NCBI GenBank assembly: GCA_029260575.1
Contig: JAJDDB010000027.1
Span: forward strand, 126,501-190,500
Direction: 5' to 3'
From: Phycisphaerales bacterium
Lineage (GTDB): Bacteria; Planctomycetota; Phycisphaerae; Phycisphaerales; SM1A02
Length of the DNA stretch: 64,000 bases
In this document: positions 23,992 through 58,044 of the stretch, in pieces
How positions within the stretch are numbered: position 1 is the stretch's first letter
How the letters are laid out: each line of letters opens with the position of its first letter
The notes under the pieces: generated by a model
Databases searched by the model: none
Seen by the model: the letters and a program-made list of their open reading frames with translations, nothing else
Told to the model about the DNA's origin: nothing
Position numbers and translations under genes: made by a program

Positions 23992-24932
23992 GAGTGGGTC
24001 TTCACCGGCCTTGATCGATCAGCGATCGTAGCGACTGTTGCGCAGTCGCGCCGAATCTGCTCGATCAGCGGCTCGACGCTGCTGTACGTGACCTGATCCC
24101 GAACCCAATCAATGAACTGCAGTCGCAGCTGCCAGCCATAGTCATCAAGTTCGCCATTGAAACCAATCAGGTACGCCTCGCACGTTCTGGGCCGATCGCC
24201 GAACGTTGGTTTGGTGCCGATGCTTATCGCAGCCGGAAATTGCCGTCCGCCCGGCAAAATACCGAGCCCACCATAGATGCCGTCACGCGGCAGCAACAGA
24301 TCGGCTTCAAGTTCGAGATTCGCAGTCGGCGTGCCCAATTCCCTGCCGCGCTGATCGCCCTTGACAACAGAACCAGCCAACTCGTACGGCCGAGCACACA
24401 GTAGCGAAGCATCACGAATCCTGCCGCGCCGTATGAGCCACCGCAGCAATGTGCTGCTGGCCCGCACGACCGATTGATCGACCAACGTACATCGGACAGG
24501 TTCGAGCTCATGAACCTCGAATCCTCGGATTTGACCAAGTTCGCGCAGCGTGTCGACTGTTCCTGCCCTCCCCCGGCCGAAGTGAAAATCCGGACCTTCC
24601 ACAAATGCCTTCGGTTCATATTCCCCCAGCAATACATCAATGAACTGCTCAGCAGAGTGACCCAGCAATTCTGCGGTCGGTTCAAGTTGAACAACATCGT
24701 CGGCCCCGGCATTCAGCAGAAGCGAACGCCGCAGGGCAAATGCAGTCAATCGGGGCGGGGCATATTCCGGGCGTAAAGTCGTCAGCGGGTGCGGATCAAA
24801 GGACAACACGACGACCCGTCCATTGGGCCCGGCCACAGCGCGCGATCGGGCGATCAGGGCCTGGTGACCCAAATGCACTCCGTCAAATGTGCCGATGCTG
24901 AGAACTACAGGTGCAGACATAAGCCCCGACAT
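23988..24932 (-). CDS. ribF: Bifunctional riboflavin kinase/FAD synthetase
   Basis: A 314-residue enzyme that makes FMN from riboflavin and then FAD. The N-terminal FAD synthetase domain has LSIGTFDGVHLGHQALI, VLSFDPHPL and VEGPDFHFGRGRAG; RASSTLLRWLIRRG lies before the kinase domain. The C-terminal flavokinase domain has VKGDQRGRELGTPTANLE, DGIYGG and IGTKPTFGDRPRTCEAYL. Both catalytic halves look complete, and the length is usual. A second in-frame Met four codons in is an alternative start. It overlaps nrnA by 4 bp, and a divergent GDH gene begins 88 bp upstream. Confidence 0.93.
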   Translation of the reverse strand: MSGLMSAPVVLSIGTFDGVHLGHQALIARSRAVAGPNGRVVVLSFDPHPLTTLRPEYAPPRLTAFALRRSLLLNAGADDVVQLEPTAELLGHSAEQFIDVLLGEYEPKAFVEGPDFHFGRGRAGTVDTLRELGQIRGFEVHELEPVRCTLVDQSVVRASSTLLRWLIRRGRIRDASLLCARPYELAGSVVKGDQRGRELGTPTANLELEADLLLPRDGIYGGLGILPGGRQFPAAISIGTKPTFGDRPRTCEAYLIGFNGELDDYGWQLRLQFIDWVRDQVTYSSVEPLIEQIRRDCATVATIADRSRPVKTHS

Positions 24933-25020
24933 TACGCTGAAACATCGAACCGGCCAAGTGCGACAACGCTACGATATGGATTCACTCTCAACCCCATTGC
25001 TCGGACACAGTTGAACGGCC

Positions 25021-28000
25021 ATGACCAAGAACCTGACTTCCGCAACTGCAGATTCACAAGCGGCCACGAATGCAAAGGCCGACGGACTTATCGATGAGGT
25101 CGTCGGCGGATTCCGCGAGACCGCTGAGGATGTTGTCCCCTGGTTCTTGAGCCAGATGCCGCTTGTGTATTTTCAGGACACCGACCGGGCGACGCAGGTC
25201 ACGCATCTTCGTGCCATCATCGCGGCCAAGGCCTCCGGCCGACCAATCAAACTCACCTTGCGCAACGAAGACGGCACCGAATGGACGTCAATGCGTCCAA
25301 GCGACTCTCCGGGCGTTCTGGCTGAGCTTGTCCATGAATTGCCGACAGATCGGGCGCTGCGGGCAGCAAAGATTCACACGGCAACCGATGGCGAGTTGGT
25401 GCTTGACACTTTTGAATTCGGCGAGGCTGAACCCTTCGACCCCGCCGACCCGATACAGGCTGAGAAGCTCAAACAAACGCTGGACTATGCAGAAGACTTC
25501 GGCATGGATTTCAGCAGTGAGCAGATTACTGCGCACTTCCATCGGTGCAGCGCTGAATACGTTCTGACGCTTACGCCGCTGCGGTTGTGCAATCATCTCG
25601 ATCTGTTCAGCCGCGTCAGCGGGACCGACGGCGCTGAAGTAACGCTGGAGCCGGAAGATGATCCGAGCCAGTGCCGAATCGTGGTCGCTGCTGAAAACGC
25701 ATCAACGCGAACAATGCTGGAGCGCGTCTCCACACGCCTCAGTCGTTCGTCAATCAACATTCGACGCGCGTATCTCGATCTTGTAAACGACAAAGACGGC
25801 GGCTGGATTTCAATTCTGGGATTTGTCGTCAACGGCCCCGAAGGTGAACCGATCAACCCACGCAGCGAATTGTGGGAAGACGTCCGCCGTGATCTGTTAC
25901 GTCTGAAGTGGATCGACCAGCGGGCGCTGGATCTGACCTATAGCAACCCGGCACTGAATTTCACTAAATCCGAGGTTCTGCTGGCACTGATTCACCTTTG
26001 TCATCAGGTACTGGTCAAGAAGAATCCCTACGCGTACAACCCCGACCGCCTGGTGCAGATGGTGTGCCGCAACATTGAACCCGCTATCGCCATTGCGGAC
26101 CTGTTTCTCGACCGCTTCAATCCCAATGCACCGCTCGACGATGAGGAGTTTGAGCGAGGGTGCGCAGCCATCAAGAACGACATTAACGCGGAAGTGGACC
26201 TGGAAGACGCCCGCGCGATGCTGAAGAAGATGCTCACAGCAGTTCGCGCGGTCTATCGCACGAATGTGTATATCGACCACCGCTATGCACTGAGCATGCG
26301 CCTTGATCCGCACTTTCTCAAAACCGACGATCGCGCTGAAGTTCCGTTCGGCGTGTTCTTTGCACATGGCAGATCATTCAACGGCTTCCATGTGCGATTC
26401 CGTGATATCGCCCGCGGCGGTGTTCGTGCCGTTCGACCGCGCAGCACCGATCAACATGCACGCGAATCAGAGCGCCTGTACGACGAGGTCTATCAACTGG
26501 CCTTTGCTCAGCAGCTCAAGAATAAGGACATTCCGGAAGGCGGATCGAAAGCTGCGGTGCTTATCGAACCCAACACGCGCGTGGATCGCAGCGTCAAGGC
26601 ATTCGTCGATTCGATTCTCGATCTGATCACGCCTGATCCGGAGGTGCAGTCGCGTATTGTCGACCGATTTGGTGTGCAGGAGCTTCTGTATCTCGGCCCT
26701 GATGAAAACATCACGCCGGACCTGATCAACTGGATCGTCGCGCGGGCCAAGCGCCGTGGCTATCCCACGCCGACTGCCCTCATGAGTTCCAAGCCCGGTG
26801 CGGGTATCAACCACAAGGAATATGGCGTCACCAGCGAAGGCGTCACTGTCTTCCTTGAAGTCGCGCTGAATGCCATCGGCCTCAATCCACGCACCCAGCC
26901 GTTCACCGTCAAAATGACCGGCGGGCCGGATGGAGATGTCGGCGGCAACATGATAAAAATCATGCACCGCGAATTCGGCACTAACGCGCGAGTCATCGGC
27001 ATCGCAGACGGAAGCGGCTCGGCGGAAGACCCGGAGGGTCTGAATCACGAGGAATTGCTACGCCTTGTGGAGCGATCCGCACCGGTTGCAGCATTCGACA
27101 AATCGAAACTCGGATCGACCGGCCGCATCGCCAGTCTTGAAGACGGTGACGGCGTCATGCTGCGCAACACCTTGCACAATCGACTCATTGCAGACGCATT
27201 CGTGCCCTGCGGCGGCAGGCCGAATGCCATTCATGGCGGGAACTGGAAGCAGTATCTCACTTCAGCCGGGACGCCAAGCAGCCGCGTGATTGTCGAAGGC
27301 GCGAATCTTTTCCTGACTCCCGAGGCTCGGGATGAGTTGTCTAAGCAGGGAATCCTGATCGTCAAGGACAGCAGCGCCAACAAGTGCGGCGTTATCTGCT
27401 CAAGCTTCGAAATCATTTCATGCATGTTGCTTGACGAACAGGAATTCCTGGAAATCAAGGAAGTCTTCATCGAGCAAGTCCTGATCAAATTGCGTGGTCT
27501 GGCTCGGCGCGAAGCCGAACTGCTGCTGCGCGTGCACAACCACATGCCGCACGTTTCATTGCCGAAACTGAGTATCCAGCTCAGTGAAGTCATGATGCGC
27601 ACTGCCGATGCCATCGCCGTAGCGCTTGACGACTTGCCGGCACCGCAGATGCAGCTCGCTCGACAACTGGTCATTGATCACATGCCGAAGGTTCTGCTGG
27701 AACGGGCCGGCGACCGTGTTGCGACAAGGCTGCCCAAGACGTACATGCACTGGATCATGGCCAAGTCGCTCGCAGCACGAATCGTCTACCGTGAAGGATT
27801 CGAATACCTGCAATCCATGGCGCCGAACATGATCGCTGAGCTGGCGCTGCAATACTTGTCACTGGAACTCGAACGTCGCCAACTTTGCGATGAAGTTGAC
27901 GACTCCGGACTTCAATCACGGCAGCGCATTTCCAGTCTGCTGAGCAGCGCGGGCATCTTTGCCACGATGGGTGATGAAGCGGAACACTTTACGACTTTGC

Positions 28001-46708: not shown

Positions 46709-46782
46709 CGGGGCGTAGCGCAGCTTGGTAGCGCGTCTGCTTTGGGAGCAGAAGGTCGCTGGTTCGAATCCAGTCGCCCCGA
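46709..46782 (+). tRNA. tRNA-Pro, anticodon TGG
   Basis: Acceptor stem CGGGGCG / CGCCCCG (7 bp perfect), D arm GCGC...GCGC, anticodon stem TCTGC / GCAGA with loop TTTGGGA (anticodon TGG), variable AGGTC, T arm with TTCGAAT loop, discriminator A; no encoded CCA. The 3' half of this gene is the integration site of the following element and stays intact after integration. Confidence 0.97.
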
Positions 46783-46785
46783 CTT
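46740..46785 (+). repeat. attL, inside the tRNA-Pro gene
   Basis: 46-bp copy of the attachment core, from the anticodon-stem CTTTGGGAGCAG to GACTT just after the tRNA. Exact match to 57968-58013; the flanks differ on both sides (G before, C after here). Confidence 0.93.
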
Positions 46786-46851
46786 CAATAACTTGGGCCG
46801 AATCCAGCACTTCGGATACCCGCCAACTCGGCGGCGCGGCTGAAACGAAAT

Positions 46852-46880
46852 CGCAACTTTTGGTTTCTGACCAAATTGCG
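46852..46880 (+). promoter_or_regulatory. Hairpin upstream of the first integrase
   Basis: CGCAA-C-TTTTGGT / ACCAAA-TTGCG with a 5-nt TTCTG loop, ending 5 nt before the GGAGG ribosome-binding site of the integrase. It may be an operator or an RNA stem that limits integrase translation. Confidence 0.45.
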
Positions 46881-46899
46881 AAACGTGGAGGTCGTTCTT

Positions 46900-48132
46900 A
46901 TGCCGAACGCCGGATCATCGCGCAAGCCCCCGAAGTACTGTCTACACAAGCCGAGCGGCCGAGCTTTCATAACGCTGGGCGGCAGACGTCGCTACATCGG
47001 CAAGCACGGAACCGATGAGAGCTGGGAGCGATACCACCAACTGATTCTCGAGTGGCGCACGTCGAATACGCGCACAAATGCCACCGAGCAGTGTTTGGCC
47101 ATCAACGAGTTGGTCGACGAATTCTGGCGGCATGCCGAAGTTCACTATCGCGGCCCCGATGGCGCGCCCACTTCCGAGCTGAGCTGCATTCAGCTGGCGA
47201 TGAAGCCGCTGCGAAAGCTATATGGCAACGCGCTCGCTGCCGACTTCAGCCCCAAAAAACTTATCGCTGTCCGCCAGTCGATGATCGACAAGGGTTGGAC
47301 TCGATCGAGCATCAATCGCCACATCGGCAGGATCCGCCACGTCTTCCGCTGGGGCGTCGAACAGGAACTCGTCACCCAAAGTGTGTGGCACGCGCTCATG
47401 GCTGTGCGGGGCCTTCAGCGATCACGCAGTGAAGCACGTGAGTCTGAACCTGTCCGGTCCGTACCCATCGCATTCATCAACGCGATCGAGCCGTACGTTT
47501 CGAGACAGATCTGGGCGCTCATCCAGCTGCAGCTGTTGACGGCCGCCCGCGCGGGCGAGCTCGTGATTATGCGGCCGATCGATATCGATACGTCGATCAG
47601 TCCCTGGCTCTACAGGCCCGCCCGGCACAAGAACGAGCATCGTGGCCACGATCGAACGATCTATCTCGGACCCCGCGCCCAAACGATCGTTGAACCGTAC
47701 TTACGACGCGACACGCATGCGATAGTGTTCAGCCCGGCCGAAGCGGAATCCGAGCGACGGGCCAACGTGCATCGCAATCGAAATACGCCTTTGCACCAAG
47801 GCAACCGACCCGGCTCGAATCGAAAGCGACGTCCGAAGCGCGCCGCCGGCGATCGCTACAGCGTCGCCAGCTACCGCCGCGCGATTCAACGCGCAATCGA
47901 TGCCGCCAATTCCGTCGAAAAGGCGCGGGCTGAGCAGGACAACCGCGCGCCGCAACCGGTGGCCAGGTGGTCACCGCATCAGCTACGGCACACAGCCGCC
48001 ACGGCGTTACGTCGCGAGCATGGACTCGACGCGGCGCGCGTGATTCTTGGTCACCGAAGCGCAACGACAACGGAGATCTACGCCGAACCAGACAAGCTGA
48101 AGGCTGAGCAAATCATTGCTCGAATCGGATAG
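46900..48132 (+). CDS. Tyrosine recombinase/integrase 1
   Basis: A 410-residue site-specific recombinase. Catalytic residues are visible in order: Arg in LTAARAGELVIMRP, Lys in HKNEHRGHDRTI, the HQLRH box (SPHQLRHTAATALRREHG), the GH pair in ARVILGHRSATTTEIY and the nucleophile Tyr of EIYAEPD. An N-terminal SAM-like binding domain comes first. The ATG used has GGAGG 8 nt upstream; an in-frame TTG eight codons earlier is weaker. It lies directly beside attL. The second integrase begins on the last base of this stop codon, so the pair is translationally coupled and may act as a heterodimer. Confidence 0.9.
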   Translation: MPNAGSSRKPPKYCLHKPSGRAFITLGGRRRYIGKHGTDESWERYHQLILEWRTSNTRTNATEQCLAINELVDEFWRHAEVHYRGPDGAPTSELSCIQLAMKPLRKLYGNALAADFSPKKLIAVRQSMIDKGWTRSSINRHIGRIRHVFRWGVEQELVTQSVWHALMAVRGLQRSRSEARESEPVRSVPIAFINAIEPYVSRQIWALIQLQLLTAARAGELVIMRPIDIDTSISPWLYRPARHKNEHRGHDRTIYLGPRAQTIVEPYLRRDTHAIVFSPAEAESERRANVHRNRNTPLHQGNRPGSNRKRRPKRAAGDRYSVASYRRAIQRAIDAANSVEKARAEQDNRAPQPVARWSPHQLRHTAATALRREHGLDAARVILGHRSATTTEIYAEPDKLKAEQIIARIG

Positions 48133-49370
48133 TGCAAGCGCAGCAGGCGACGAAACAAAAAGCGGACCGACCGCGAGTTATGCCCACGCAGCCGGCCCTT
48201 GAACCATCAAGATGGAGATACATCCCAATGGCCCAACATCATCCTACACAGTTCGAACGACCGCCCAGCACCGTGAACGAACTCGTCGACGTCTATATCG
48301 AATGGGCGCGAGGCTACTACCTGAAGCCAGGAACGCGCCGACCGACACGAGAAGCAGAGAACTGCAACTGCGCGATGCGTGGCCTGCGAGAAGTTGCCGG
48401 CGATGATTCGATCGAATCACTCAGCGCTGAGACACTCTTCACATACCAACAGTGGTGCATCGAAGCCGACTATTCTCGTCGGTACATCAATGGATCTGTG
48501 AATCGGATCCGGCGCATCGTGAAGTGGTCAATCCGGCCGCCGCGGCGTTGGCTTTCAGCGACTGTACTGGCGGACATGCAGACCATCGAGCCACTGCGAT
48601 TTGGCCGCACAGCCGCACGTGACACGGATCGTGTTCGGCCAGCGCCACAAGAGCTAATCGACGGATGCTTGAATCAGGTCAGGCGTCAGATCGCTGCAAT
48701 GATCAGACTTCAGCTGCTTACTGGCATGCGTCCTGGCGAAGCGGTTCTCATGCGACCGTGCGATATCGAACGGCAGGACGGACCGACGTGGATCTATCGA
48801 CCATCGGAGCACAAGACCGAACATCACGGCCATGAACGCATAGTTCTGCTTGGGCCGAAATCTCGGCGGATCATCAGGCCGTTCATGCAGCGCAACCCAT
48901 CGGCCTATTTGTTCTCACCTCGCGAATCGATGCAGGAATTCCGCGATCAACTCACCCAGGCGCGCATCACGCCGCTGTCATGCGGCAATAGACGGGGAAC
49001 CAACCGAAAGACAGATCCGCAATGGTCGCCGAACGACTGCTTCACAACGCAGACGTATCGGCAGGCGATTCACCGTGGATGCAACTCCGCGTTCCCGCCG
49101 CCAGCACCGCTCGGCCGACGATCTGTGGAAACGAACGCGGAATGGGCAAGGAGGCTGACACCAAGCCAGCGCGCCGAATTGAAGGCATGGCGAATCGCGC
49201 ATCGGTTCGCGCCGAACCAGCTCCGCCACAACCGGGCGACTGAGCTGCGGCGCGCATACGGGATCGATGTCTGCGCGACGATCCTCGGCCACGCCAGTCC
49301 GGACACGAGTCTGATCTATGCCGAGCGGGATCTCGATCGCGCGATGCAGATCACCGCAGAGTCAGGATGA
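48132..49370 (+). CDS. Tyrosine recombinase/integrase 2 (His-box variant)
   Basis: A 412-residue paralogue of integrase 1. It has Arg in LLTGMRPGEAVLMRP, Lys in HKTEHHGHERIVL, and the C-terminal block NQLRHNRATELRRAYG, CATILGHASPDTSLIYAERD with GH and Tyr. The usual HxxRH motif reads NxxRH here: the first His is Asn. Domain order matches the first integrase, with similar insert lengths, so the genes probably arose by duplication. The GTG start overlaps the previous stop; an ATG 32 codons in (MAQHHPTQ) with GGAG upstream is an alternative start. The altered box may weaken or alter catalysis, or this protein may only assist its partner. Confidence 0.85.
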   Translation: MQAQQATKQKADRPRVMPTQPALEPSRWRYIPMAQHHPTQFERPPSTVNELVDVYIEWARGYYLKPGTRRPTREAENCNCAMRGLREVAGDDSIESLSAETLFTYQQWCIEADYSRRYINGSVNRIRRIVKWSIRPPRRWLSATVLADMQTIEPLRFGRTAARDTDRVRPAPQELIDGCLNQVRRQIAAMIRLQLLTGMRPGEAVLMRPCDIERQDGPTWIYRPSEHKTEHHGHERIVLLGPKSRRIIRPFMQRNPSAYLFSPRESMQEFRDQLTQARITPLSCGNRRGTNRKTDPQWSPNDCFTTQTYRQAIHRGCNSAFPPPAPLGRRSVETNAEWARRLTPSQRAELKAWRIAHRFAPNQLRHNRATELRRAYGIDVCATILGHASPDTSLIYAERDLDRAMQITAESG

Positions 49371-49465
49371 ACGACGGTCTGCGGGAGTGGGCGGCCGCCT
49401 GGCCGGTGTGCTGTTGCGCGCCGGTCGGAATTCATCGATCACGAACTCAACAGGAGCGATCAGCG

Positions 49466-49744
49466 ATGCGAAACACATACGAGTCTTGGAGATTTCTCTT
49501 GGCCGGCGGCATCATTCGCACAGCCGCAGCTGCAGGCTGGAATGTGCAGAAGACGAAACAGGCGATTCGAACTCGATCGAGCTACATCCAGCTTGAACAC
49601 CCTGTCTCCGGTCGTCGGCTGCTGGTGCGGCTGTCGGATCATCCGCCGCGGCGGTGGCGTGGCGAATTTGTATCGATCGAATACCCGGAGACGAAATTGT
49701 CGAGAGTGAGCATGCTAATCCGCAAGCTCAGAGCTGTTTCGTAG
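49466..49744 (+). CDS. Small basic protein, unknown
   Basis: A 92-residue protein starting MRNTYESWRFLL; AGGAG lies 10 nt upstream. An upstream in-frame ATG at 49367, overlapping the integrase stop by 4 bp, would add 33 residues rich in Trp and Cys and is less likely. The sequence is basic (Arg-rich C-terminus, RRWRGEFVSIEY and LSRVSMLIRKLRAVS) and might bind nucleic acid. No known family is recognised. It lies between the integrases and the 361-residue gene on the same strand. Confidence 0.55.
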   Translation: MRNTYESWRFLLAGGIIRTAAAAGWNVQKTKQAIRTRSSYIQLEHPVSGRRLLVRLSDHPPRRWRGEFVSIEYPETKLSRVSMLIRKLRAVS

Positions 49745-49803
49745 AATGATCCCAGTTCGGGAAGGACGGCTGATCGCCGGCTAGGCGGCGCCGGGATAGT
49801 GTG

Positions 49804-50889
49804 ATGAACATGAACGATCAGAGAAACCCTGAAGAACTACCTCCCGACTTCGATGCACCGTCGATTGACGAATTGAATTGGAAACCTGCGCCAAATCTTC
49901 GGTGGATCGCAGAGCAGCTCAACGAGAACCTGCTGCCGAAACCTCGTCGCGGTCATGTTGTGCCGGTCGAAGATCTTCCAGATGACATACGCGAGCTGTT
50001 CGAATACTGCCAATCCGGCCCGGCTCTTGGGTGGGAGCCATATGACGCACGAGCACTCGAGGTCAGAATAAACTGGGCATGCGAGTGGACGTTTCTGGTT
50101 GCCGGAAGCCCTATCGTGTTGGCCTATATTCTGACGTCGCTGAGGAATGCGCCGAGCGAGCCGTACCCTTCCGGCCCTAGCTCCATAACGATTCGTGACG
50201 TCATCGACGAAGATCTTTTGCGTTTACCCAACGATGTTCAACGCGCAGTGAGCGACGCGAGATCAAAGCAGCCTACTGATTTGGTACTGAAGCTGCTCGA
50301 TCGTCATTACACCGCGATTTGGGTCGAGACGATCTTCGAAATCATGGAGCAATGGGAGGCATTGGCAAGGAACCGTCTTCGAGATCGCGGATTCACTCTC
50401 ACCGACGACGGCACGTTCGACTCCGACTATTCTGCGGGCGAGATCGAAGAACTCTCGAAAGATCCGGAAATCGTCGAAGCCATGGTGTGTCTGTCTCAAT
50501 CGTTTGAATTTCGACACGCACTCGTACAGCGCGACGTCTTTCGAGCAATCATGCTGGCGTTCAACGTCGGGAAGGCCGGCATGGCCATTACATTCGACTC
50601 GCCGTTGCGCAAGGGCGAGGAACACTACACCCATGCGTTCGCGCCGGATCTATGGTTACATTTGCCTCCGCTCGAAAAGAAGATCGCTGATTACATGGCG
50701 CCCCGAGACTCTGCCGCTGTCGCGGAGTTGTACAAAGCATGCTGGGGTGGCCGTTACACGACGGAGCGGAGAGCCTCGATCAAGAAATCATTGAGCACGC
50801 TCTCAAAGGCGCTGGCTGATCTCGGCAAGAACGTCAGATATTCTCTCAAAGGTGATCTAGTGACGAAAGTCACAGACCAAGCTGAGTAA
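49804..50889 (+). CDS. Unknown cytoplasmic protein of the element
   Basis: A 361-residue soluble protein that I do not recognise. It begins MNMNDQRNPEELPPDF (an in-frame GTG precedes it by one codon), contains RGHVVPVEDLPDDIRELFEY, WACEWTFLVAGSP and EKKIADYMAPRDSAAVAELY, and ends in a lysine-rich helical stretch (KSLSTLSKALADLGKNVRYS) that could be a small winged-helix-like DNA-binding end. It lacks membrane spans and metal clusters. It stands as its own unit between the integrase end and the excisionase-like gene, with about 55-100 nt on each side. It could be an element-specific regulator or defence cargo; nothing in the sequence decides. Confidence 0.75.
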   Translation: MNMNDQRNPEELPPDFDAPSIDELNWKPAPNLRWIAEQLNENLLPKPRRGHVVPVEDLPDDIRELFEYCQSGPALGWEPYDARALEVRINWACEWTFLVAGSPIVLAYILTSLRNAPSEPYPSGPSSITIRDVIDEDLLRLPNDVQRAVSDARSKQPTDLVLKLLDRHYTAIWVETIFEIMEQWEALARNRLRDRGFTLTDDGTFDSDYSAGEIEELSKDPEIVEAMVCLSQSFEFRHALVQRDVFRAIMLAFNVGKAGMAITFDSPLRKGEEHYTHAFAPDLWLHLPPLEKKIADYMAPRDSAAVAELYKACWGGRYTTERRASIKKSLSTLSKALADLGKNVRYSLKGDLVTKVTDQAE

Positions 50890-50985
50890 CCGAAAACGGT
50901 AACCAAAAACCCCAACAGTTACGGCCCACCGTATCTGCAAGTAGTTCACGATCTGCACTCCACACTCATATGCAGGAGGCAAGTC

Positions 50986-51327
50986 GTGACAAACAGCAGC
51001 GAAGAGCAACTCATCACACTACAGGAGGCGACGCGGCTGTTCGGCTCGCATCGCCCTCACGTTTCGACAATCTTCCGATGGGCTCGTCACGGTGTTCGTG
51101 GCGTGCGATTGCCGTACATCCGTGCCGGCCGTCGCATGCTTGTGAAACCTAGCGATGTTCATGAGTTTTGCCGACGGCTCGCCGAAGCTGACACTGATCG
51201 TGACGTCCTTGCTGATGACGTTGCACATCGAATCTCGGGCAGCAACACAACTCGCCAGCGTTCACCGAAACAAGCTGCAGCCGACCGTCGACGCGCAGAT
51301 CGCAATCTTGATCGGGCGGGGATCTGA
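50986..51327 (+). CDS. Excisionase-like helix-turn-helix protein
   Basis: A 113-residue DNA-binding protein. The GTG start is strongly supported by AGGAGG 8 nt upstream. Residues 8-70 form a MerR/excisionase-like HTH: ITLQEATRLFGSHRPHVSTI, FRWARHGVRGVRLPYIRAGR and RMLVKPSDVHEFCRRL, the usual pattern in which the wing binds DNA and the last helix follows. A basic tail (RQRSPKQAAADRRRADRN) is added. In phage and integrative elements such proteins act as recombination directionality factors or regulators. It is 2 nt from the next gene. Confidence 0.8.
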   Translation: MTNSSEEQLITLQEATRLFGSHRPHVSTIFRWARHGVRGVRLPYIRAGRRMLVKPSDVHEFCRRLAEADTDRDVLADDVAHRISGSNTTRQRSPKQAAADRRRADRNLDRAGI

Positions 51328-51329
51328 CG

Positions 51330-51845
51330 ATGGGCAGCTACGACATCACCCAGATCGACTTCGCAGCGATGGACTCGACAGCGGAACAGCTTCGCGCGGC
51401 TGAAGCCATCGGCCAGACTGAACTGATCGAACTTCGCGAGCAGCAGCAAGATCAAGCGATCCTGATGAATTGGGCGAAGGTACGAAAGCGCCCACCGCGG
51501 GATCTTTCTGACATCGAGCGCGAGGCGCGGCAGCGCATCATCGCCGGCGACGTCGAACAGATTTGCGGACTGATTCACGAGTCACAGGTTGCAGAGATCA
51601 GGGCTCGTCGCCGAGCAGCTCATATCGGCACCCGAGCGATGAAGCTCATCATCCGTGGCGAGGCGCTGCGCGATACAGGGAAGCTTGCACAGGCAGAACG
51701 GGCGCTTCAACCAGCTGAACAACTCCTACAACAACTGGTCGCAGCGAAGAATGACGAACGCGCAGCCCAATTCATGGGTGCCCAGTTGGTGCACGAACTG
51801 AGCGAACTGCAGCAATCGCCACATGCGTCGTACCGCGATGAGTGA
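51330..51845 (+). CDS. Helical coiled-coil protein of the element, unknown
   Basis: A 171-residue, almost wholly helical, charged protein (STAEQLRAAEAIGQTELIEL, EARQRIIAGDVEQICGLIHE, LAQAERALQPAEQLLQQLVA). Starts 2 nt after the excisionase-like gene, hence co-translated. No motif is recognised. It might be a structural or regulatory helper; a leader region with two hairpins separates it from the replication-type protein. Confidence 0.7.
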   Translation: MGSYDITQIDFAAMDSTAEQLRAAEAIGQTELIELREQQQDQAILMNWAKVRKRPPRDLSDIEREARQRIIAGDVEQICGLIHESQVAEIRARRRAAHIGTRAMKLIIRGEALRDTGKLAQAERALQPAEQLLQQLVAAKNDERAAQFMGAQLVHELSELQQSPHASYRDE

Positions 51846-51853
51846 AAGAAATA

Positions 51854-51930
51854 CGTCCCGCCCGCGCGGCGGGTGTTTGTGCCGAAGCGCAGACGGGACG
51901 CAAGATAGGAACTCGGGGCACGAACCCCGG
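51854..51930 (+). promoter_or_regulatory. Mutually exclusive stems before the replication-type gene
   Basis: CGTCCCG (51854-51860) pairs with CGGGACG (51894-51900). The alternative CCCGCC (51857-51862) / GGCGGG (51868-51873) shares bases with the first stem and is followed by TGTTTG. A third stem CGGGG / CCCCG lies at 51914-51929, just before AAGGA and the next ATG. The layout resembles an attenuator. Confidence 0.4.
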
Positions 51931-51950
51931 GCCGATCAAGGACGATCGAC

Positions 51951-53042
51951 ATGGCATCATACGAGAGTGCTGATCGTGGGCGAATTATTCGCATTGTCAA
52001 GCACACGAAGAATTACGTCGTTATTCAACGCCAATCGATCGTTGACAATAGGCTCAGCCACCGAGCTACGGGGTTGCTGTGCCATCTGCTCGCAATGCCA
52101 GATGACTGGGTGGTTCGAATCGCGCATTTGGTCAATGCTAAGACTGAGGGACGTAATGCCGTGCGCAAAGCTCTCAGTGAACTGAAGCAGTGCGGTTACT
52201 ACAGGAAATATCGTCGGCGCGATTCTCGTGGCAGATTCTTCTGGGTCGACGCCGTATACGAGACTCCCGACCGTAGAGCTGAGTACGAGCAACCAGAATT
52301 GTTCGAGGAGTTCATGCAGACAATCGCACCGGGGTCGCAAGCTGCAGGTGATGCTTCTGGAACGTTGTTTGAATCAACGGATAAAGCTTCGAAACCAACG
52401 CTGGCAGATCCTCAGTCCATAGACGGAAAACCGGCGCGTGGACTCAACACTCGCCGTGCCGAAGGTCGCTTTCCGGCGCTTGGAGTTCCAGGAGGTGATT
52501 CCACTGACGGGATTCCGGCGCATGGAGAACCGAGCGCCGAAAATCAAACCGTACCAAGTAATGATGTAACAAGTAGTGATCAGCAGCAGCAGCGTGCTGC
52601 TGCTGAACTCATCACAGCATTGACTGATGCAGGAATCGGCGAACCCGTACGGAGCGAGCTGGCCAACACAGGGCGTCTGACAGCCACGACAGTGCGACGT
52701 GAGGCGTCGAAATGTCGTGAGCGTGGTAAGGGGACCGGAGCCCTGGTGAACAACCTGCGGGCAATCGCGACGCGGTCGCGCTCGCAGAGTACTGGCTCCA
52801 ATGCGCCGGCTCTGACGAACGAGCTGCCTGACCAACGGGCTGCAGATGAGGAATATCGAACAGAAGCCGCTGCGATCGACGAATGGCTGATCGGCCTCGA
52901 TGACGACGAACGAGAGAGACTCACGGCGGAGACGCTGGACGCAATGAGTAATGCGGCGCGGAGACGTTTGCCTTACGAAGACCCGAGGCAGTCGAAAGCG
53001 CTGGCGCGTCGTATGTACGCGGCGATTCACCAACCGGCATGA
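51951..53042 (+). CDS. Winged-helix (HTH_36-like) phage-type replication or regulatory protein
   Basis: A 363-residue protein. The N-terminal 90 residues form a winged-helix domain typical of replication initiators and DnaD-like proteins of phages: VVIQRQSIVDNRLSHRATGL, LCHLLAMPDDWVVRIAHLV and RNAVRKALSELKQCGYYRK. A Ser/Gly/Gln-rich linker (with QQQQ near 210) leads to a C-terminal helical region, KCRERGKGTGALVNNLRAI, as seen in small replication proteins. No polymerase or helicase motif is visible. It overlaps the next gene by 4 bp. Function as an element replication initiator is inferred, not shown. Confidence 0.72.
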   Translation: MASYESADRGRIIRIVKHTKNYVVIQRQSIVDNRLSHRATGLLCHLLAMPDDWVVRIAHLVNAKTEGRNAVRKALSELKQCGYYRKYRRRDSRGRFFWVDAVYETPDRRAEYEQPELFEEFMQTIAPGSQAAGDASGTLFESTDKASKPTLADPQSIDGKPARGLNTRRAEGRFPALGVPGGDSTDGIPAHGEPSAENQTVPSNDVTSSDQQQQRAAAELITALTDAGIGEPVRSELANTGRLTATTVRREASKCRERGKGTGALVNNLRAIATRSRSQSTGSNAPALTNELPDQRAADEEYRTEAAAIDEWLIGLDDDERERLTAETLDAMSNAARRRLPYEDPRQSKALARRMYAAIHQPA

Positions 53043-53257
53043 GCACTCAATTAGACGGCGATCCCGACTTCAACGCGGCGCTTTCTGATGCGGCCAACGC
53101 ACAACTCGCTACACCGCCCGACCTGCAAGAGTTGCTGGATGCCATGAGATCGATTCCTACGGCCGAACGACGGGCGATCGTCCGACACGCTCAAATGCTG
53201 GCAACGATGCCACAGACGCAACGGTGGGCTATCCTGACACTTACGAGAGGTCGATGA
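53039..53257 (+). CDS. Small acidic helical protein of the element
   Basis: A 72-residue protein (MSTQLDGDPDFNAALSDAAN, then DLQELLDAMRSIPTAERRAI). It overlaps the replication-type gene by 4 bp, so translation is coupled. Predicted to be three helices; no family recognised. The coupling suggests that it partners the larger protein. Confidence 0.65.
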   Translation: MSTQLDGDPDFNAALSDAANAQLATPPDLQELLDAMRSIPTAERRAIVRHAQMLATMPQTQRWAILTLTRGR

Positions 53258-53385
53258 CGCGGCCTACCGGAAGAGAGCGGGTCCTTTCTGGCCGATCGAC
53301 CGTGCGCGCCCCCTACGGGAACAGTCGCAAAACAAGACACACTTTCTTTCTTCGATGTAGACGGCCAATGTGGGCTGTGCACACC

Positions 53386-53640
53386 ATGAGCAAGGGCAAG
53401 GGACGTCCTACTGGCAGCCGAACTCAAGAGCCGTTGTTCGTCAACGTACTGCCTGGTCGATGCCCAGTTTGCGGCTCTCGACATACCGCATGGAGCACGA
53501 CCCCACTCCGGCGGCGATGTAGCGGAACTTCTCCGTTGACTGGGAAACCATGCACCGGCATCGTCCTGACGCGCAAGCGATGTCGGTGTGGTCAGGTCCG
53601 GATCGAGCGGGAGTATTCTGAGGTGCATGGTGGCCCGTAA
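53386..53640 (+). CDS. Zinc-ribbon protein 1 (phage-type)
   Basis: An 84-residue protein starting MSKGKGRPTGSRTQ. It has a four-cysteine ribbon: CPVCGS at about 29-34 and CRCG at about 67-70, with a further pair (RRCSGTSPLTGKPC) between. Such small ribbons in phage genomes include Ogr/Delta-type transcription activators, HNH-like or terminase-associated proteins. The basic N-terminus could bind DNA. The upstream open frame extends 54 codons without a good start. Its 3' end overlaps the next zinc-ribbon gene by 14 bp. Confidence 0.65.
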   Translation: MSKGKGRPTGSRTQEPLFVNVLPGRCPVCGSRHTAWSTTPLRRRCSGTSPLTGKPCTGIVLTRKRCRCGQVRIEREYSEVHGGP

Positions 53641-53893
53641 ATCGCCCCAACGCGCGCGCCGCAAGCCATTCGTCGGCATCGATGACCCCGCACCAATGAA
53701 GATGACGCCGGCAAGCGATCCTCCGGCACCTGGATGCAATCTGCGTACCGTGCATTGTCGGTTGAACCGGTGCGATGTCTGCGGATCGGCCGAGTTGAAG
53801 ATCCGGAAAACCATCGACCTCGGCAACCGTATGAAACTGCAATACATGTTTTGCAAAGAGTGTGGTAACCGGTTCAAGTCGCGCTGGACGTGA
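53627..53893 (+). CDS. Zinc-ribbon protein 2 (phage-type)
   Basis: An 88-residue protein with a basic N-terminus MVARKSPQRARRKPF and a treble-clef-like ribbon NRCDVCGSAELKIRKT...FCKECGNRFKSRW (C-X2-C and C-X2-C). The spacing and the ending FKSRW resemble small phage-borne zinc fingers such as the Ogr/Delta family of late-gene activators and the NrdR-like ribbons, but it is too short to assign. GAGG sits near the ATG. It overlaps zinc-ribbon 1 by 14 bp and is followed by an inverted repeat and a hairpin before the next gene. Confidence 0.65.
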   Translation: MVARKSPQRARRKPFVGIDDPAPMKMTPASDPPAPGCNLRTVHCRLNRCDVCGSAELKIRKTIDLGNRMKLQYMFCKECGNRFKSRWT

Positions 53894-53898
53894 GATTG

Positions 53899-53915
53899 AT
53901 TCCACTCCGTGGAAT
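53899..53915 (+). promoter_or_regulatory. Perfect inverted repeat upstream of the late-like genes
   Basis: ATTCCAC-TCC-GTGGAAT, a perfect 7-bp palindrome, followed by AT-rich sequence (GTATATTACAAAG) about 70-85 bp before the start at 53984. Possible operator for the following genes, perhaps bound by one of the zinc-ribbon proteins. Confidence 0.4.
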
Positions 53916-53957
53916 GAGCCACAGATTCGAGGCGTATATTACAAAGTGGACAACACA

Positions 53958-53983
53958 GGTGCGGCGGGTACGGAGACCGCACC
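53958..53983 (+). promoter_or_regulatory. Translational hairpin with the Shine-Dalgarno in its loop
   Basis: GGTGCGG / CCGCACC, a perfect 7-bp stem with 12-nt loop that contains GGAG, ends exactly one base before the ATG at 53984. Such a stem could gate ribosome access to this gene. Confidence 0.5.
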
Positions 53984-54724
53984 ATGACCGAGACAACGCA
54001 AACGTCGATGTTGAACGAAGCTCAGATTGCAATTGAGCTTGGGTTCACCGGTCGCGATTCACTGCTGAAAACCAAGCGATTGCTCGCCAAGTCGCGAATC
54101 GGCCACTTTCCACAGCCAGATGGTTCGGCCCGGGTCGAGGCACCAGATCTCGCGCAGTATCTTCGGCGTGGACAGCCAGACCGAGATCCGCCGCGCTACA
54201 GCGGCGCATGGTTCGACAATCAAGGCATCGCGGCGTCGGCTCGCTCATTTGAGCGCAGGCTACGAGGTGCCGTCGGAAAGCTCCCCGAGCAGCGGCCGGC
54301 TGCGGACATTGTCAACGTTCGACCGTCGCCGGCGATGCGTGCGCTGATATCGGAACTGATGCCAGAGTCTCGCGCACTGTCGCGACGCTACCGCGAAGAC
54401 CCACTCAAGTCGAGAATGCTTCGGTCAAGCGATGCGATGCTGGTGCTGATGCTTCGACGGACGACTCAGGGCGTGATTCGTCGCGGCGGAATCAAGACTA
54501 GCTACGGCAGTTCCATCGAGCAGCTCTTCGCTTCGGCAGCTGCATATTCCAAATTCACGGCCGAGGCGATCGATCTTCTATTCGATGGCGTTCTCACAAC
54601 TATCTCGAAGAGCTATGCGCGTACAGGACATGCAGGAGTCACTGACAACGTTGTGTTTGCGGTTCGGACTCGCGATCTGCTGACCCGCGCTGATCTTGAT
54701 CGGGCTGTGTCCATCGCATTCTGA
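53984..54724 (+). CDS. Unknown element protein with an N-terminal DNA-binding-like domain
   Basis: A 246-residue protein. The first 65 residues look like a helix-turn-helix (MLNEAQIAIELGFTGRDSLL, KTKRLLAKSRIGHFPQPDGS). The rest has LRSSDAMLVLMLRRTTQGVI and a long helical part with AAAYSKFTAEAIDLLFDGV. No enzyme motif is seen. It starts a second gene group of the element, with the translation start in a hairpin and a palindrome upstream, and precedes the coiled-coil and tape-measure genes. A structural or morphogenetic role is possible by position only. Confidence 0.65.
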   Translation: MTETTQTSMLNEAQIAIELGFTGRDSLLKTKRLLAKSRIGHFPQPDGSARVEAPDLAQYLRRGQPDRDPPRYSGAWFDNQGIAASARSFERRLRGAVGKLPEQRPAADIVNVRPSPAMRALISELMPESRALSRRYREDPLKSRMLRSSDAMLVLMLRRTTQGVIRRGGIKTSYGSSIEQLFASAAAYSKFTAEAIDLLFDGVLTTISKSYARTGHAGVTDNVVFAVRTRDLLTRADLDRAVSIAF

Positions 54725-54789
54725 CGCGGGGATAACAGCAATGTTCGAAGAGCGACTAACAAAGTTGGTTCGTGCTGAAAGGAACCGCC

Positions 54790-55392
54790 ATGACCCCGAG
54801 CATCGAGTTTTACACCGAGCCGTTACAGCCATTACCCGTCTTGAACTGGCTTCCGAAGCCAATCCAGGACAAGGTGAAGATGATCAACGGCGACGTGCAG
54901 AGCCTGCAGAAACGGCGCAGCAACTTCGCTACCTCGGCAAAGCGGATCCGCGTCACGCGAATCGAGGACATCGACCCGGCTGAGGTGTCGAGGCAGGAGA
55001 GCGAGTTCCAGCAAGCGATGATTCGGATCTTGCAGGACGAGCTCGCGCTTCAGAATGACATGAACGCCGTCGTCGAAGAGATGAATGGCTGTGTGATGTC
55101 CGCCAAGGAGCGAGCTAACAAGAAGCATGCTGACACTCGAGCCCGGGTGAAGAAGAAGCTCGAATCGATCGGCTACATCGATACCGGCGGCAAGCTTGAT
55201 TTGCGCGTACCCGGCAGCATCTCACCCGACATGATCGCCAGACACCCCGACGTTTGGGAGGCTCGAGTCAGCGCCCAATCATTCGACCCGAGCAGCTCGA
55301 TCGCAGACCTGAAGAGGAAGATTTCAGCCGCGATTCGGAAGATCGAGGACATCTTCGATCAGCTGCTCAATCGCGTAGTCGGCGGTTCGTGA
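54790..55392 (+). CDS. Coiled-coil protein next to the tape-measure gene
   Basis: A 200-residue, mostly helical protein (VKMINGDVQSLQKRRSNFAT, FQQAMIRILQDELALQNDMN, RANKKHADTRARVKKKLESI). AAAGGA lies 7 nt before the ATG. It ends 13 nt before the tape-measure-like gene. In phages the genes just before the tape measure make tail assembly chaperones, but this one shows no slippery frameshift site and no resemblance that I can see. Position hints at a tail role; nothing else supports it. Confidence 0.65.
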   Translation: MTPSIEFYTEPLQPLPVLNWLPKPIQDKVKMINGDVQSLQKRRSNFATSAKRIRVTRIEDIDPAEVSRQESEFQQAMIRILQDELALQNDMNAVVEEMNGCVMSAKERANKKHADTRARVKKKLESIGYIDTGGKLDLRVPGSISPDMIARHPDVWEARVSAQSFDPSSSIADLKRKISAAIRKIEDIFDQLLNRVVGGS

Positions 55393-55405
55393 ATAGAGGC
55401 CTCGA

Positions 55406-57691
55406 TTGACCGGAGCAGGAGCAATCCGAGCAGGACGCGCGTTCGTCGAAGCCAACCTCGACGACACCAAACTTGTGCGCGGACTGCGCCGTGCCCAGGC
55501 GAAGATGAAGGCGTTCGGTGCCGGCGTCAGCAGCATCGGTCGATCGCTGTTGGCAGTGAGCGCTGCGGGCCTCACTCCGTTCATTGCCGGTATCCGCACG
55601 TTCATCTCTATGGGCGATGAGCTCGACAAGATGAGTAAGCGCACCGGCTTCAGTGTGGAGACGCTCAGCGAGTTGAAGTTCGCTGCACGCGAAACCGGCA
55701 CAGATCTGAGCACGCTGGAGCGCGGCATCAAGACGATGCAGCGATCGATCACCGATGCCGGCCGCGGGCTGTCAACGCAGGTTGATGCACTCGGTGATCT
55801 CGGTCTGTCGTACGACGACCTGGCAAGCAAATCGCCCGAGGAGCAATTCAAACTGATTGCCGATCGGATTGCATCGATCGAAGATCCCACCAAGCGGGCA
55901 GCGCTGGCGCAGATGCTGCTGGGCCGAGCCGGCACGCAGCTGCTGCCGCTGTTCGAACGCGGGGCTGCGGGCATTGAAGAATTCCAGCGCAAAGCTCGCG
56001 AGATGGGACTGACACTGAGCACGGAGGCGGCTGCAGATGCAGCCAAGCTCGGCGACACACTCGGGCAGTTGTGGGACATCATCAAGATCGGCGCGTTCAG
56101 CATCGGGGCCCAGCTGGCGCCTTCGCTAATCACAGCAACGAAAGCGCTGCATGGCCAGGCAATGGAAGCTGTGGCGTGGATCAAAACCAATCGCGAGATG
56201 ATTGTCACGATCGCGCAGTGGATCGCGAAGATCGGCGTTGCCGGCGTCGCGCTGGTGGCCGTTGGCGGCACGATCCAGCTGGTGGCCGGAACCGTCGGCA
56301 CGCTGATCGGTGTCATAAAGGGCCTGGGGGCCGCGATGGCATTTCTTGCGGTCAATCCCATGTTCCTCGCACTCGGCGCCATCGTGGCCGGATTTGTCGC
56401 GCTGGGCATAGCAATTGATCGAGCATCGCAGTTTACTGCGCAATTGAACGACAGCTTTGCAAAGGCTCGCGCGGCAGGCGATCAGATGCGTGCGCAGGAT
56501 CTCGATCGCATTCAGCGTCTGCAGCAACTTGCCGCCAAGGAGAAGCTCAGTAACAGCGAGCTGGAAGAAGCCCAGGGGATTGTCGTTGTGCTGACCGATC
56601 GGTACGGAGATCTCGGAATACAAGTCAGTGCCGCGACAGGTGCGATCGAAGGCGTTGCCGCTGCGGGCGCGCGTCTGCTGAAAGTCTTTCAGCAAATGAC
56701 AATCCGACAGCTGCAGCAGGAGCTGGACGAGGCACGCAAGAATACGGCCGAACTCAAGAAGGAATTCGACGCGGTGTTCACGGCCGCGAATTTCGGCGCC
56801 AACTTTTCTGATTCGCAGCGGATCCCGGACAAGTCAGACACGACTGCTGAAACCACGCGCGTGCAGAAGCAAGCGGCAGAGGCTCGCCGCAAACTTGAAG
56901 ATGCGCTGCGGGTTCAACGTGAAACACAGCGTCGAATCGACGCAATTCGCGGTGGCAATCTCGACGCGCTGACGGCTGCGCCTGGTTCCACCGCCGCGGG
57001 TTCACCGCCAGCCACTGAGTCGATCGGCGCAACGAGCGATATCGACGCGCTGCGAAGCCGTGTCGATCAACTCGGCCTCGAAGGGATCGAAAACCAAGCG
57101 CAGCGCGAGCTGGCTTTGATCAGATTCAAATTCGAGAAAGAGATCGAGCTTGCCAAGCTCGAGGAAAACAACGAGGAGAAGCTGTCTCTGATCAAGAAGG
57201 CTCGGCGACTCGAGATAGAAGCGCTCGAGCGCCAGATTCACCAGCGCGTGTTCGCGGAGAAGCAGCGGCAGATCGAGCGCATCGCCATGAGCGAGAAGCA
57301 GCTGCAGCGCGAGATCGAACAACTGGAGATCTCTATAGCAGGCGGTCCGGATGTGGAGGGCAAGCTCCTGGAGCTTCGCCGCCAGAACGCACTCGAGGAT
57401 GCGCGTGAAGAGGGCATCAATCCGAACCTGATCAATCGACGATTTGACCTTCAACTGCGCGCGATCGATACGATGCAGGGTGCAGCGGAGCCGGCACTGC
57501 GCACTGTCGGATCATTCAGCGGTGCAGAGCTCGCCGGCATGGCGTTCCCCGGCTCGCAGACGATCGACAAGACCGAAGAGAAGAAGACCGCCGAGGAGGC
57601 GAAGAAGATCGCCGAAACCGCCGAGCAGATCAGTAACCGCTTGAGCAACATCGAGATCGTCCTGCGCGAAAGCGGACTGGCGTTCGCCTGA
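55406..57691 (+). CDS. Phage tail tape-measure-like protein
   Basis: A 761-residue protein. It has an N-terminal AFVEANLDDTKLVRGLRRAQ leading to the TP901-type ISMGDELDKMSKRTGFSVET, LSELKFAARETGTDLSTLER block, with LAQMLLGRAGTQLLPLFERG. A long hydrophobic region follows at about 255-345 (GVAGVALVAVGGTIQLVAGT, GFVALGIAIDRASQFTAQL), then coiled coil to about 700 (EARRKLEDALRVQRETQRRI). That combination is the layout of tape-measure proteins of long-tailed phages, which set tail length. The start is a TTG with AGAGG 7 nt upstream. Length would give a tail of roughly 115 nm by the usual ratio (about 1.5 angstrom per residue), but no tail tube, sheath or baseplate gene is in the element. Confidence 0.82.
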   Translation: MTGAGAIRAGRAFVEANLDDTKLVRGLRRAQAKMKAFGAGVSSIGRSLLAVSAAGLTPFIAGIRTFISMGDELDKMSKRTGFSVETLSELKFAARETGTDLSTLERGIKTMQRSITDAGRGLSTQVDALGDLGLSYDDLASKSPEEQFKLIADRIASIEDPTKRAALAQMLLGRAGTQLLPLFERGAAGIEEFQRKAREMGLTLSTEAAADAAKLGDTLGQLWDIIKIGAFSIGAQLAPSLITATKALHGQAMEAVAWIKTNREMIVTIAQWIAKIGVAGVALVAVGGTIQLVAGTVGTLIGVIKGLGAAMAFLAVNPMFLALGAIVAGFVALGIAIDRASQFTAQLNDSFAKARAAGDQMRAQDLDRIQRLQQLAAKEKLSNSELEEAQGIVVVLTDRYGDLGIQVSAATGAIEGVAAAGARLLKVFQQMTIRQLQQELDEARKNTAELKKEFDAVFTAANFGANFSDSQRIPDKSDTTAETTRVQKQAAEARRKLEDALRVQRETQRRIDAIRGGNLDALTAAPGSTAAGSPPATESIGATSDIDALRSRVDQLGLEGIENQAQRELALIRFKFEKEIELAKLEENNEEKLSLIKKARRLEIEALERQIHQRVFAEKQRQIERIAMSEKQLQREIEQLEISIAGGPDVEGKLLELRRQNALEDAREEGINPNLINRRFDLQLRAIDTMQGAAEPALRTVGSFSGAELAGMAFPGSQTIDKTEEKKTAEEAKKIAETAEQISNRLSNIEIVLRESGLAFA

Positions 57692-57967
57692 CCTGGGATA
57701 GAGTCGTATCGGCTCTCGGTGTCGTTCATTTTCCTTTGCGGAACACCGCGCTGTCCAACCAGGCGGCGCGGTTGTTTCGTTTGCTGACCACGACTTTGGT
57801 GTCGAACTCACTACCCGTTGCCCACATGCCAGAGAGCGCATGTATTGTTGATAATTGACCAAAAACAGTCCAATGACGTGCGATGATTTGCAATTGATGC
57901 AACGGGTAGGTAGCGTTTGAATCGCTTCAGCCGCTGGGAACGCCGAGTCGGCAAGCTCTCGATTATT
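57692..57967. promoter_or_regulatory. Non-coding right end of the element next to attR
   Basis: A 276-bp gap without a gene, less GC-rich (AT patches TTGTTGATAATTGACC and TTTGCAATTGATGCAA). TTGCA / TGCAA (57888-57902) forms a short inverted repeat. Integrase arm sites or a host-factor site would be expected here; none can be proven. Confidence 0.4.
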
Positions 57968-58013
57968 CTTTGGGAGCAGAAGGTCGCTGGTTCGAATCCA
58001 GTCGCCCCGACTT
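57968..58013 (+). repeat. attR, 46-bp copy of the tRNA-Pro 3' end
   Basis: Exact match to 46740-46785, not followed by the 5' half of a tRNA, so not a functional tRNA gene. It marks the right border of the element. The next gene starts 32 bp later. Confidence 0.93.
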
Positions 58014-58044
58014 TAAGGCACATCAAATATGTAGGTTCTCCGGA

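Follow-up and report, generated by a model that had tools for sequence, protein, structure and literature searches.

How might an integrated element move between cells when it carries a gene for one part of a phage tail and no recognisable gene for a phage head? The question is raised by positions 46,709 to 58,013 of a 64,000-nucleotide stretch of contig JAJDDB010000027.1 from a Phycisphaerales bacterium (hereafter the window), where an 11.2-kb segment lies in a tRNA-Pro gene. Our preferred answer, to which we give a probability of roughly 0.6, is that we are dealing with an integrated phage satellite from a family so far undescribed, which would use the head and most of the tail of a helper phage while supplying its own tail tape measure protein (TMP). 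Both the use of a helper and the chimeric tails we infer indirectly.

The tRNA-Pro site and the tape measure gene

The features on which this answer chiefly depends are these:

46709..46783, plus strand: intact tRNA-Pro gene (anticodon TGG), the integration site (ARAGORN; Rfam RF00005)
46740..46785, plus strand: left att repeat, 46 bp, within the 3' part of the tRNA, identical to 57968-58013
46876..48132, plus strand: Int1, tyrosine recombinase, 418 aa, TTG start as listed (PF00589, 1.6e-12; phrog_1, 4.6e-28)
48132..49370, plus strand: Int2, second tyrosine recombinase, 412 aa (PF00589, 3e-11; phrog_1, 3.2e-23)
54772..55392, plus strand: p206, family marker protein, predicted helical hairpin (profiles; model pLDDT 65)
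55406..57691, plus strand: TMP, 761 aa (phrog_8462, 5.7e-42; alignment)
57968..58013, plus strand: right att repeat, a tRNA 3' fragment (repeat search)

Integration at tRNA-Pro is well supported. The repeated segment consists of the 3' part of tRNA-Pro(TGG) and the next bases (46740-46785). In full, the direct repeat spans 49 nt with one mismatch (46740-46788 and 57968-58016), its first 46 nt being identical, and the starts of the two copies are separated by 11,228 bp. An exact identity of 46 nt is far beyond chance, and the att pair is the sole direct-repeat family of at least 18 nt between 45 and 60 kb. The left copy lies inside the whole tRNA; the right copy is without the tRNA 5' half and starts at the anticodon loop, as would be expected of an att remnant, and therefore the restored tRNA is on the left, with the recombinase genes next to it. 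Int1 and Int2 are adjacent, stand first in the element and share 37% identity across 367 residues. Int2 has Asn at the position of the first His of Int1's HxLRH motif, which we take to have its usual meaning in tyrosine recombinases, and it gave no match to phage records at E<=0.001. The G+C content of the element is similar to that of the rest of the window, in which Rfam at gathering thresholds reported nothing but the tRNA. Intact tRNA, exact repeats and adjoining recombinases together confirm the original prediction, made from the letters of the window, of an integrative element headed by integrases and bounded by exact 46-bp repeats 11.2 kb apart. The element thus has what is generally asked of a satellite: it is integrated, with its own integrase and att repeats.

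The same prediction had recognised neither capsid, terminase and portal genes nor any gene for transfer, and this held in every search. Neither portal nor terminase nor capsid was matched by Pfam in the 13 proteins of the element, by PHROGs in 12 of them (p72 was outside the scan) or by NCBIfam in 10, and hidden Markov models (HMMs) for the head proteins of the phage group itself had no match anywhere in the window at E<=0.01. The only hint of a divergent head gene, p171 against a head-protease profile (E=0.073), is noise. No relaxase, type IV secretion or conjugation family appeared among the proteins scanned with Pfam, PHROGs and NCBIfam. In these searches the element therefore has neither the terminase, portal and major capsid genes of an autonomous prophage nor the relaxase or type IV secretion genes of an integrative conjugative or mobilisable element. 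The lack of recognisable head genes is well supported; the gene set for an autonomous virion is missing, and the sole virion gene is that for TMP.

The TMP gene is the last gene of the element and is complete, its product aligning from the conserved N-terminal domain through a conserved GLAFA-like end. The N-terminal domain is ~40-53% identical to prophage TMPs, and matches were found in 17 of 61 related genomes and in 77 of 298 genomes of the class (E<=1e-20). We read 112 loci, made up of part of the TMP hits and some brought in via p246, including duplicates of the window and of the element in genome G044. A TMP hit was present in 110, of which 69 extend for 9 kb or more upstream, and the phage-group HMMs detected terminase, portal or capsid genes in 60 of the 69. 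The nine without a head match are the window, the elements in G044 and G620 described below, and L111, L065, L068, L066, L062 and L075. For L065 and L068 PHROGs shows a terminase and portal of another type, L066 has gene clusters in common with both, and the TMP hit of L075 is negligible. L062 (G043:C25:1-16000), at a contig end, has a short divergent TMP of 453 aa and five scanned proteins without a PHROGs match; one of its small open reading frames (ORFs) resembles a 74-aa protein of the G044 element that is like a helix-turn-helix (HTH) protein (9e-15), and it is a candidate for another TMP-bearing element, without p206. At L111 (G628:C26:1200-21100) a recombinase that resembles, by eye, a serine recombinase breaks up a phage late operon; it lies immediately ahead of a major tail protein (MTP) gene that is shortened, and perhaps marks the insertion of an element into a phage late gene.

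In length, too, the window TMP stands apart. Among 70 rows from outside the elements (median 664 aa), 54 measure 650-677 aa and nine 779-790 aa, with seven outliers or proteins cut by contig ends; at 761 aa the window TMP falls outside both common classes. The two narrow length classes correspond to two TMP types on a common late-operon backbone, and five genomes of the same order (G039, G043, G047, G055 and G059) hold 4-9 TMP matches each, as several related prophages. IMG/VR yielded one TMP relative, in an ordinary phage contig, and the contigs of named genomes gave no match for TMP or for the orphan protein p362.

A family of five elements marked by p206

The suggestion of a phage satellite, already part of the original prediction, stands, and gains support from four further elements that carry a homologue of p206, the protein encoded directly before TMP. 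At E<=0.01, a three-row p206 profile matched 8 of the 301 genomes from the order: three already known (the window, G044 and G620), two strong and new (G685, 2.7e-23; G695, 2.2e-18) and three weak. A five-row profile matched 3 of 238 genomes of the class, all already known. Weak matches were excluded, namely G062, G287, G357 and G425 (E 0.004-0.008), L075 (0.0013), and G589, G018 and G729 (0.006-0.010), of which the last three vanish with the five-row model at E<=0.05. The p206 protein had no phmmer match (E<=1e-4) in 107 other loci, mostly prophage, and none in phage or plasmid records; IMG/VR returned nothing for p206 or p246 queries.

The five p206 elements, all in one bacterial order, adjoin five different tRNA or tmRNA genes, and four have exact tRNA/tmRNA repeats of 31-53 bp. 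No head gene was found in any of them (TerL, portal and major capsid protein (MCP) HMMs), and pieces of a central tail module occur in four: TMP in the window, TMP with c3 in G044, the tail assembly chaperone (TAC) with TMP in G620, and c5 in G685. From their position, both c3 and c5 probably belong to the distal tail or tip; PHROGs names neither.

The G044 element (contig C33) has an exact 31-bp repeat with copies 14,038 bp apart, the right one overlapping the 3' end of the tmRNA. Its genes include a primase/helicase (phrog_3022, 5.5e-101), p228 (the p246 homologue) and p193 (the p206 homologue), both preceding TMP, then c3, a tail-operon protein, a 278-aa protein and an integrase. Beside tRNA-Arg, the G620 element carries an integrase, an initiator-like gene, a p206-like gene (E=9e-4 with a two-row profile), TAC (4e-45) and TMP. 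In G685, 40 bp of the tRNA-Cys 5' part are exactly repeated 12,927 bp away, and in G695 a 53-bp repeat at tRNA-Gly recurs at 12,480 bp; TMP was found in neither. The G685 element encodes a 228-aa protein related to c5, a late gene two places after TMP, and its nearest relative among 131 genomes (5.6e-28) is an ORF in a prophage of the same genome. That ORF scores 1.8e-46 with the c5 HMM, and the two c5-like genes are 60 kb apart. The prophage carries TMP, TAC, MTP and c3, with TerL and portal on the adjoining stretch and no match to the MCP HMM. The c5 gene of G685 is apparently the clearest sign of local recruitment from a resident prophage. In G695 a 1400-aa protein of unknown function follows p206. 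The ends of that element (L171 ~12434-12782; L171/L172 ~24893-25262 of the joined stretch) share, apart from the att repeat, several shorter identical blocks in register, which might be what is left of the integrase end from a previous insertion of similar kind.

The p206 protein is a coiled coil, and a single-sequence AF2 model (pLDDT 65) is a helical hairpin, for which Foldseek returned nothing at E<=0.001 from either BFVD or PDB. We rejected p206 as a TAC because G620 has both a true TAC and a p206-like protein; p206 itself has no match to the TAC profile. Resemblance to the "putative phage capsid protein" 2r9i (profile E=0.054, fold E=2.6) is not significant and serves as a lead only.

Since the window element has integrases and one TMP and no recognisable capsid or packaging genes, it probably travels by hijacking phages. 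It would excise when a suitable siphophage grows in the cell, replicate via its own initiator and have its DNA packaged into the head of the helper, and the tail would be assembled on the satellite TMP in place of that of the helper, giving a chimeric tail. Since the sister elements carry chaperone and TMP, TMP and c3, or c5, different satellites seem to substitute for different parts within one central segment of the tail. The benefit could perhaps lie in favouring the satellite's own particles, in escaping anti-tail defences, or in changing tail length or DNA ejection.

Remaining genes and competing explanations

The other features of the element are:

49367..49744, plus strand: p125, overlapping the Int2 stop (no match in Pfam, PHROGs, PADLOC or NCBIfam)
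49801..50889, plus strand: p362, orphan protein (no match in the same four)
50986..51327, plus strand: excisionase-like DUF1580 protein, 113 aa (PF07618, 4.4e-10; phrog_66, 9.9e-5)
51330..51845, plus strand: p171 (no significant match in the same four)
51951..53042, plus strand: replication-initiator-like HTH protein, 363 aa (phrog_4707, 3.8e-19; HTH_36, 3.6e-4, below cut-off)
53039..53257, plus strand: p72, small ORF, weakly supported (ORF only)
53224..53640, plus strand: p138, zinc-ribbon-like by its Cys pattern, by eye (tblastn to L025, 6.5e-11)
53588..53893, plus strand: 101-aa protein, zinc-ribbon-like by its Cys pattern, by eye (phrog_5516, 6.8e-4, function unknown)
53984..54724, plus strand: p246, also in the G044 element (30% identity over 243 aa, 1.1e-17; profile)
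57745..57772, plus strand: terminator-like hairpin 3' of the TMP gene (hairpin scan)

The 13 accepted genes between the repeats all lie on the plus strand, as originally described, several with stop/start overlap. This depends on a judgement at 53039-53893, where we preferred three small plus-strand ORFs to the overlapping 264-aa minus-strand ORF (53191-53985) picked by a simple ORF caller. Some gene maps used here come from that caller, which sometimes picks the wrong strand. Support for the choice is uneven, p138 having a homologue in a phage contig (L025, between TerL and portal) and p72 no support of its own. The view that most of the proteins are unrecognised gave way in part, having missed TMP, the excisionase-like DUF1580 protein (4.9e-4 against TIGR01764, under the family cut-off) and the initiator-like protein. 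The DUF1580 protein would also be in keeping with a planctomycete host. No homologue of p362 was found in phages or in 120 other genomes of the order, and its structure model is of no use (pLDDT 40). PADLOC, run on eight window proteins, gave nothing convincing (one match at 0.0097). Terminator-like hairpins are not enriched overall (15 observed, 10.0 +/- 3.6 expected). Elsewhere, a p246-like protein stands beside an initiator-like gene, without TMP, at L074 (G161:C1:4362000-4381900, ~10.4-16.1 kb), together with a 606-aa protein that, by eye, resembles an OLD-type nuclease.

Several of these genes would also suit a decayed prophage, a temperate phage in tRNA-Pro in which deletions removed the head genes and most of the tail genes, leaving only TMP. 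The kinship of the TMP N-terminal domain with prophage TMPs, the phage-like initiator and the p138 homologue in a phage contig all fit such a history. We nevertheless consider it unlikely, for all 13 frames are open and the att repeats exact, and p206 is absent from the 107 mostly-prophage loci yet common to five elements with different sites, so that the same kind of reduction would be required repeatedly. Less likely again is a mobilisable or passively spread non-phage genomic island with TMP as passenger cargo: it would accommodate the tandem recombinases, the orphan genes p125, p362 and p171 and the failure to identify a helper, but no relaxase or conjugation family was seen among the scanned proteins and tail genes recur in four of the five related elements. 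Least probable, by a little, is that TMP is a weapon, a dominant-negative part that enters the nascent tails of an invader phage in anti-phage defence and not in transfer, given its full length with the conserved C-terminal end, its pairing with a chaperone in G620 and the PADLOC result.

Mobility of the segment was examined at the same site in relatives. Among 30 nuoA loci read of 59 places, 19, the window included, have tRNA-Pro(TGG) within ~1.5 kb of nuoA. DNA 3' of the tRNA was fetched for 18 relatives, three of which (L221-L223) were too short or on the wrong side. The original prediction had named fixation of the segment in all relatives as grounds for giving it up; in all 15 informative relatives from the family (~3.5-8.1 kb) the element is absent after the tRNA, none of its proteins being found there (tblastn E<=1e-5).

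The host genome holds two prophage-like loci with a full late set, G000:C3 ~153-174 kb (L027, L156) and G000:C4 ~184-203 kb (L026, L158), which match each other in four blocks at 79-86% identity and have the 780-aa TMP class; an integrase HMM had no match in the C3 region read. DNA shared with the element was rejected as a packaging signal, the longest exact match being 16 nt; of four control segments one gave no match, and the other three gave exact matches of 16-18 nt or a 20-nt match at 95%.

A number of observations weigh against the satellite explanation. The TMP of the two resident prophage-like loci is of another type than that in the window, and neither locus has a DNA segment in common with the element above control level; no helper was identified and no circular form found. 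The genomes of G044 and G620 appear to have no related resident prophage, because the closest TMP homologues there are the element's own. No exact empty site was found in the relatives, because these lack the genes of the right flank as well. In G620 a search at >=14 nt found no second att copy, and no tail gene was found in the G695 element. PHROGs covered 12 of 13 window proteins, 10 of ~18 in G044, six in G620, eight in G685 and two in G695, so that for G685, G695 and G044 the evidence that head genes are missing comes from the HMMs of one phage group and from PHROGs scans of part of the proteins. The proteins p206, p246, p362, p171 and p125 are without known function. Finally, in N-terminal-domain trees (99 and 78 rows) the branches of the three satellite TMPs are long and fall among the prophage TMPs. 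These trees require 2 and 3 changes, 1 and 2 of them enforced by well-supported branches, yet one clade for all three is compatible with the data (p-AU 0.51); such a clade is thus neither shown nor excluded, and repeated recruitment of TMP by satellites is possible.

Comparison with known satellites

Taking the satellite explanation as preferred, the closest parallel is with the PLE satellites of Vibrio cholerae, headless and with their own TMP. In the sections of the PLE report that we draw on (PMC12987554), PLEs encode TMP and TAC, their virions contain the satellite TMP with the helper TMP excluded, and the chimeric tails, built with helper parts, are ~10 nm shorter, matching TMP lengths; deletion of tmp cuts transduction by 96% in PLE1 and by 99% in PLE4. 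According to the same sections (Nature, March 2026), no other satellites had been reported to encode TMP, and candidates in other Vibrio and in cf-PICIs suggest that tail manipulation is broader in satellite biology. A TAC beside TMP also occurs in G620, alone among the sisters, and a further tail part occurs in some elements (BhuB in PLE11 in that source; c3 or c5 here). The window element has no TAC-like ORF (TAC HMM with filters off, best 0.39), its TMP is from another phage group, and our comparison with PLEs covers TMP and TAC only. It sits in tRNA-Pro via tyrosine recombinases, whereas PLE integration reportedly differs. Most likely, on this analysis, the element works like a PLE-type tail-remodelling satellite.

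In PICIs, divergent regulatory genes lie beside int, followed by primase or replication genes. Compared with that layout, the window element has all genes on one strand, no divergent regulator pair seen, a TMP, and excisionase-like and initiator-like genes; the first three are differences from PICIs and PICMIs. Size (~10-15 kb in the part of PMC11364771 used), integrase and replication gene are shared with PICIs, and PICMIs, as far as the text drawn on describes them, are also without capsid-remodelling genes (PMC10803314). Some cf-PICIs encode putative tmp genes, according to one figure legend (PMC12987554, Extended Data Fig. 10); by definition, however, they have capsid genes, and Pfam, PHROGs, NCBIfam and the head HMMs found no capsid or packaging genes in the window element. 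Siphophage-like prophages of the same class (L027, L026, L028) are related through TMP, and their c3, c5 and TAC recur in the sister elements, but they have TerL, portal, MCP and MTP and are without p206. Membership in the PLE, PICI, cf-PICI or another named family is not shown. The parts of the open-licence PMC literature covered (phage satellites with TMP or chimeric tails; planctomycete or Phycisphaer prophages) describe no such elements.

A bolder proposal, which we hold tentatively and at rather less than even confidence, is that these elements form a separate tail-remodelling lineage unrelated to PLEs, in which a p206 backbone would repeatedly acquire siphophage TAC, TMP, c3 or c5, once apparently from a resident prophage, to give satellite-specified tail cores, with p206 as a helper-hijacking factor acting on capsid, packaging or tail. 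An independent family with its own backbone would support the view that tail manipulation is widespread among satellites and would show that takeover of tails has arisen more than once in evolution. With the p206 profile, further members can be looked for, and G685, whose genome holds both a satellite and its likely donor prophage, offers a concrete case for satellite-helper co-evolution.

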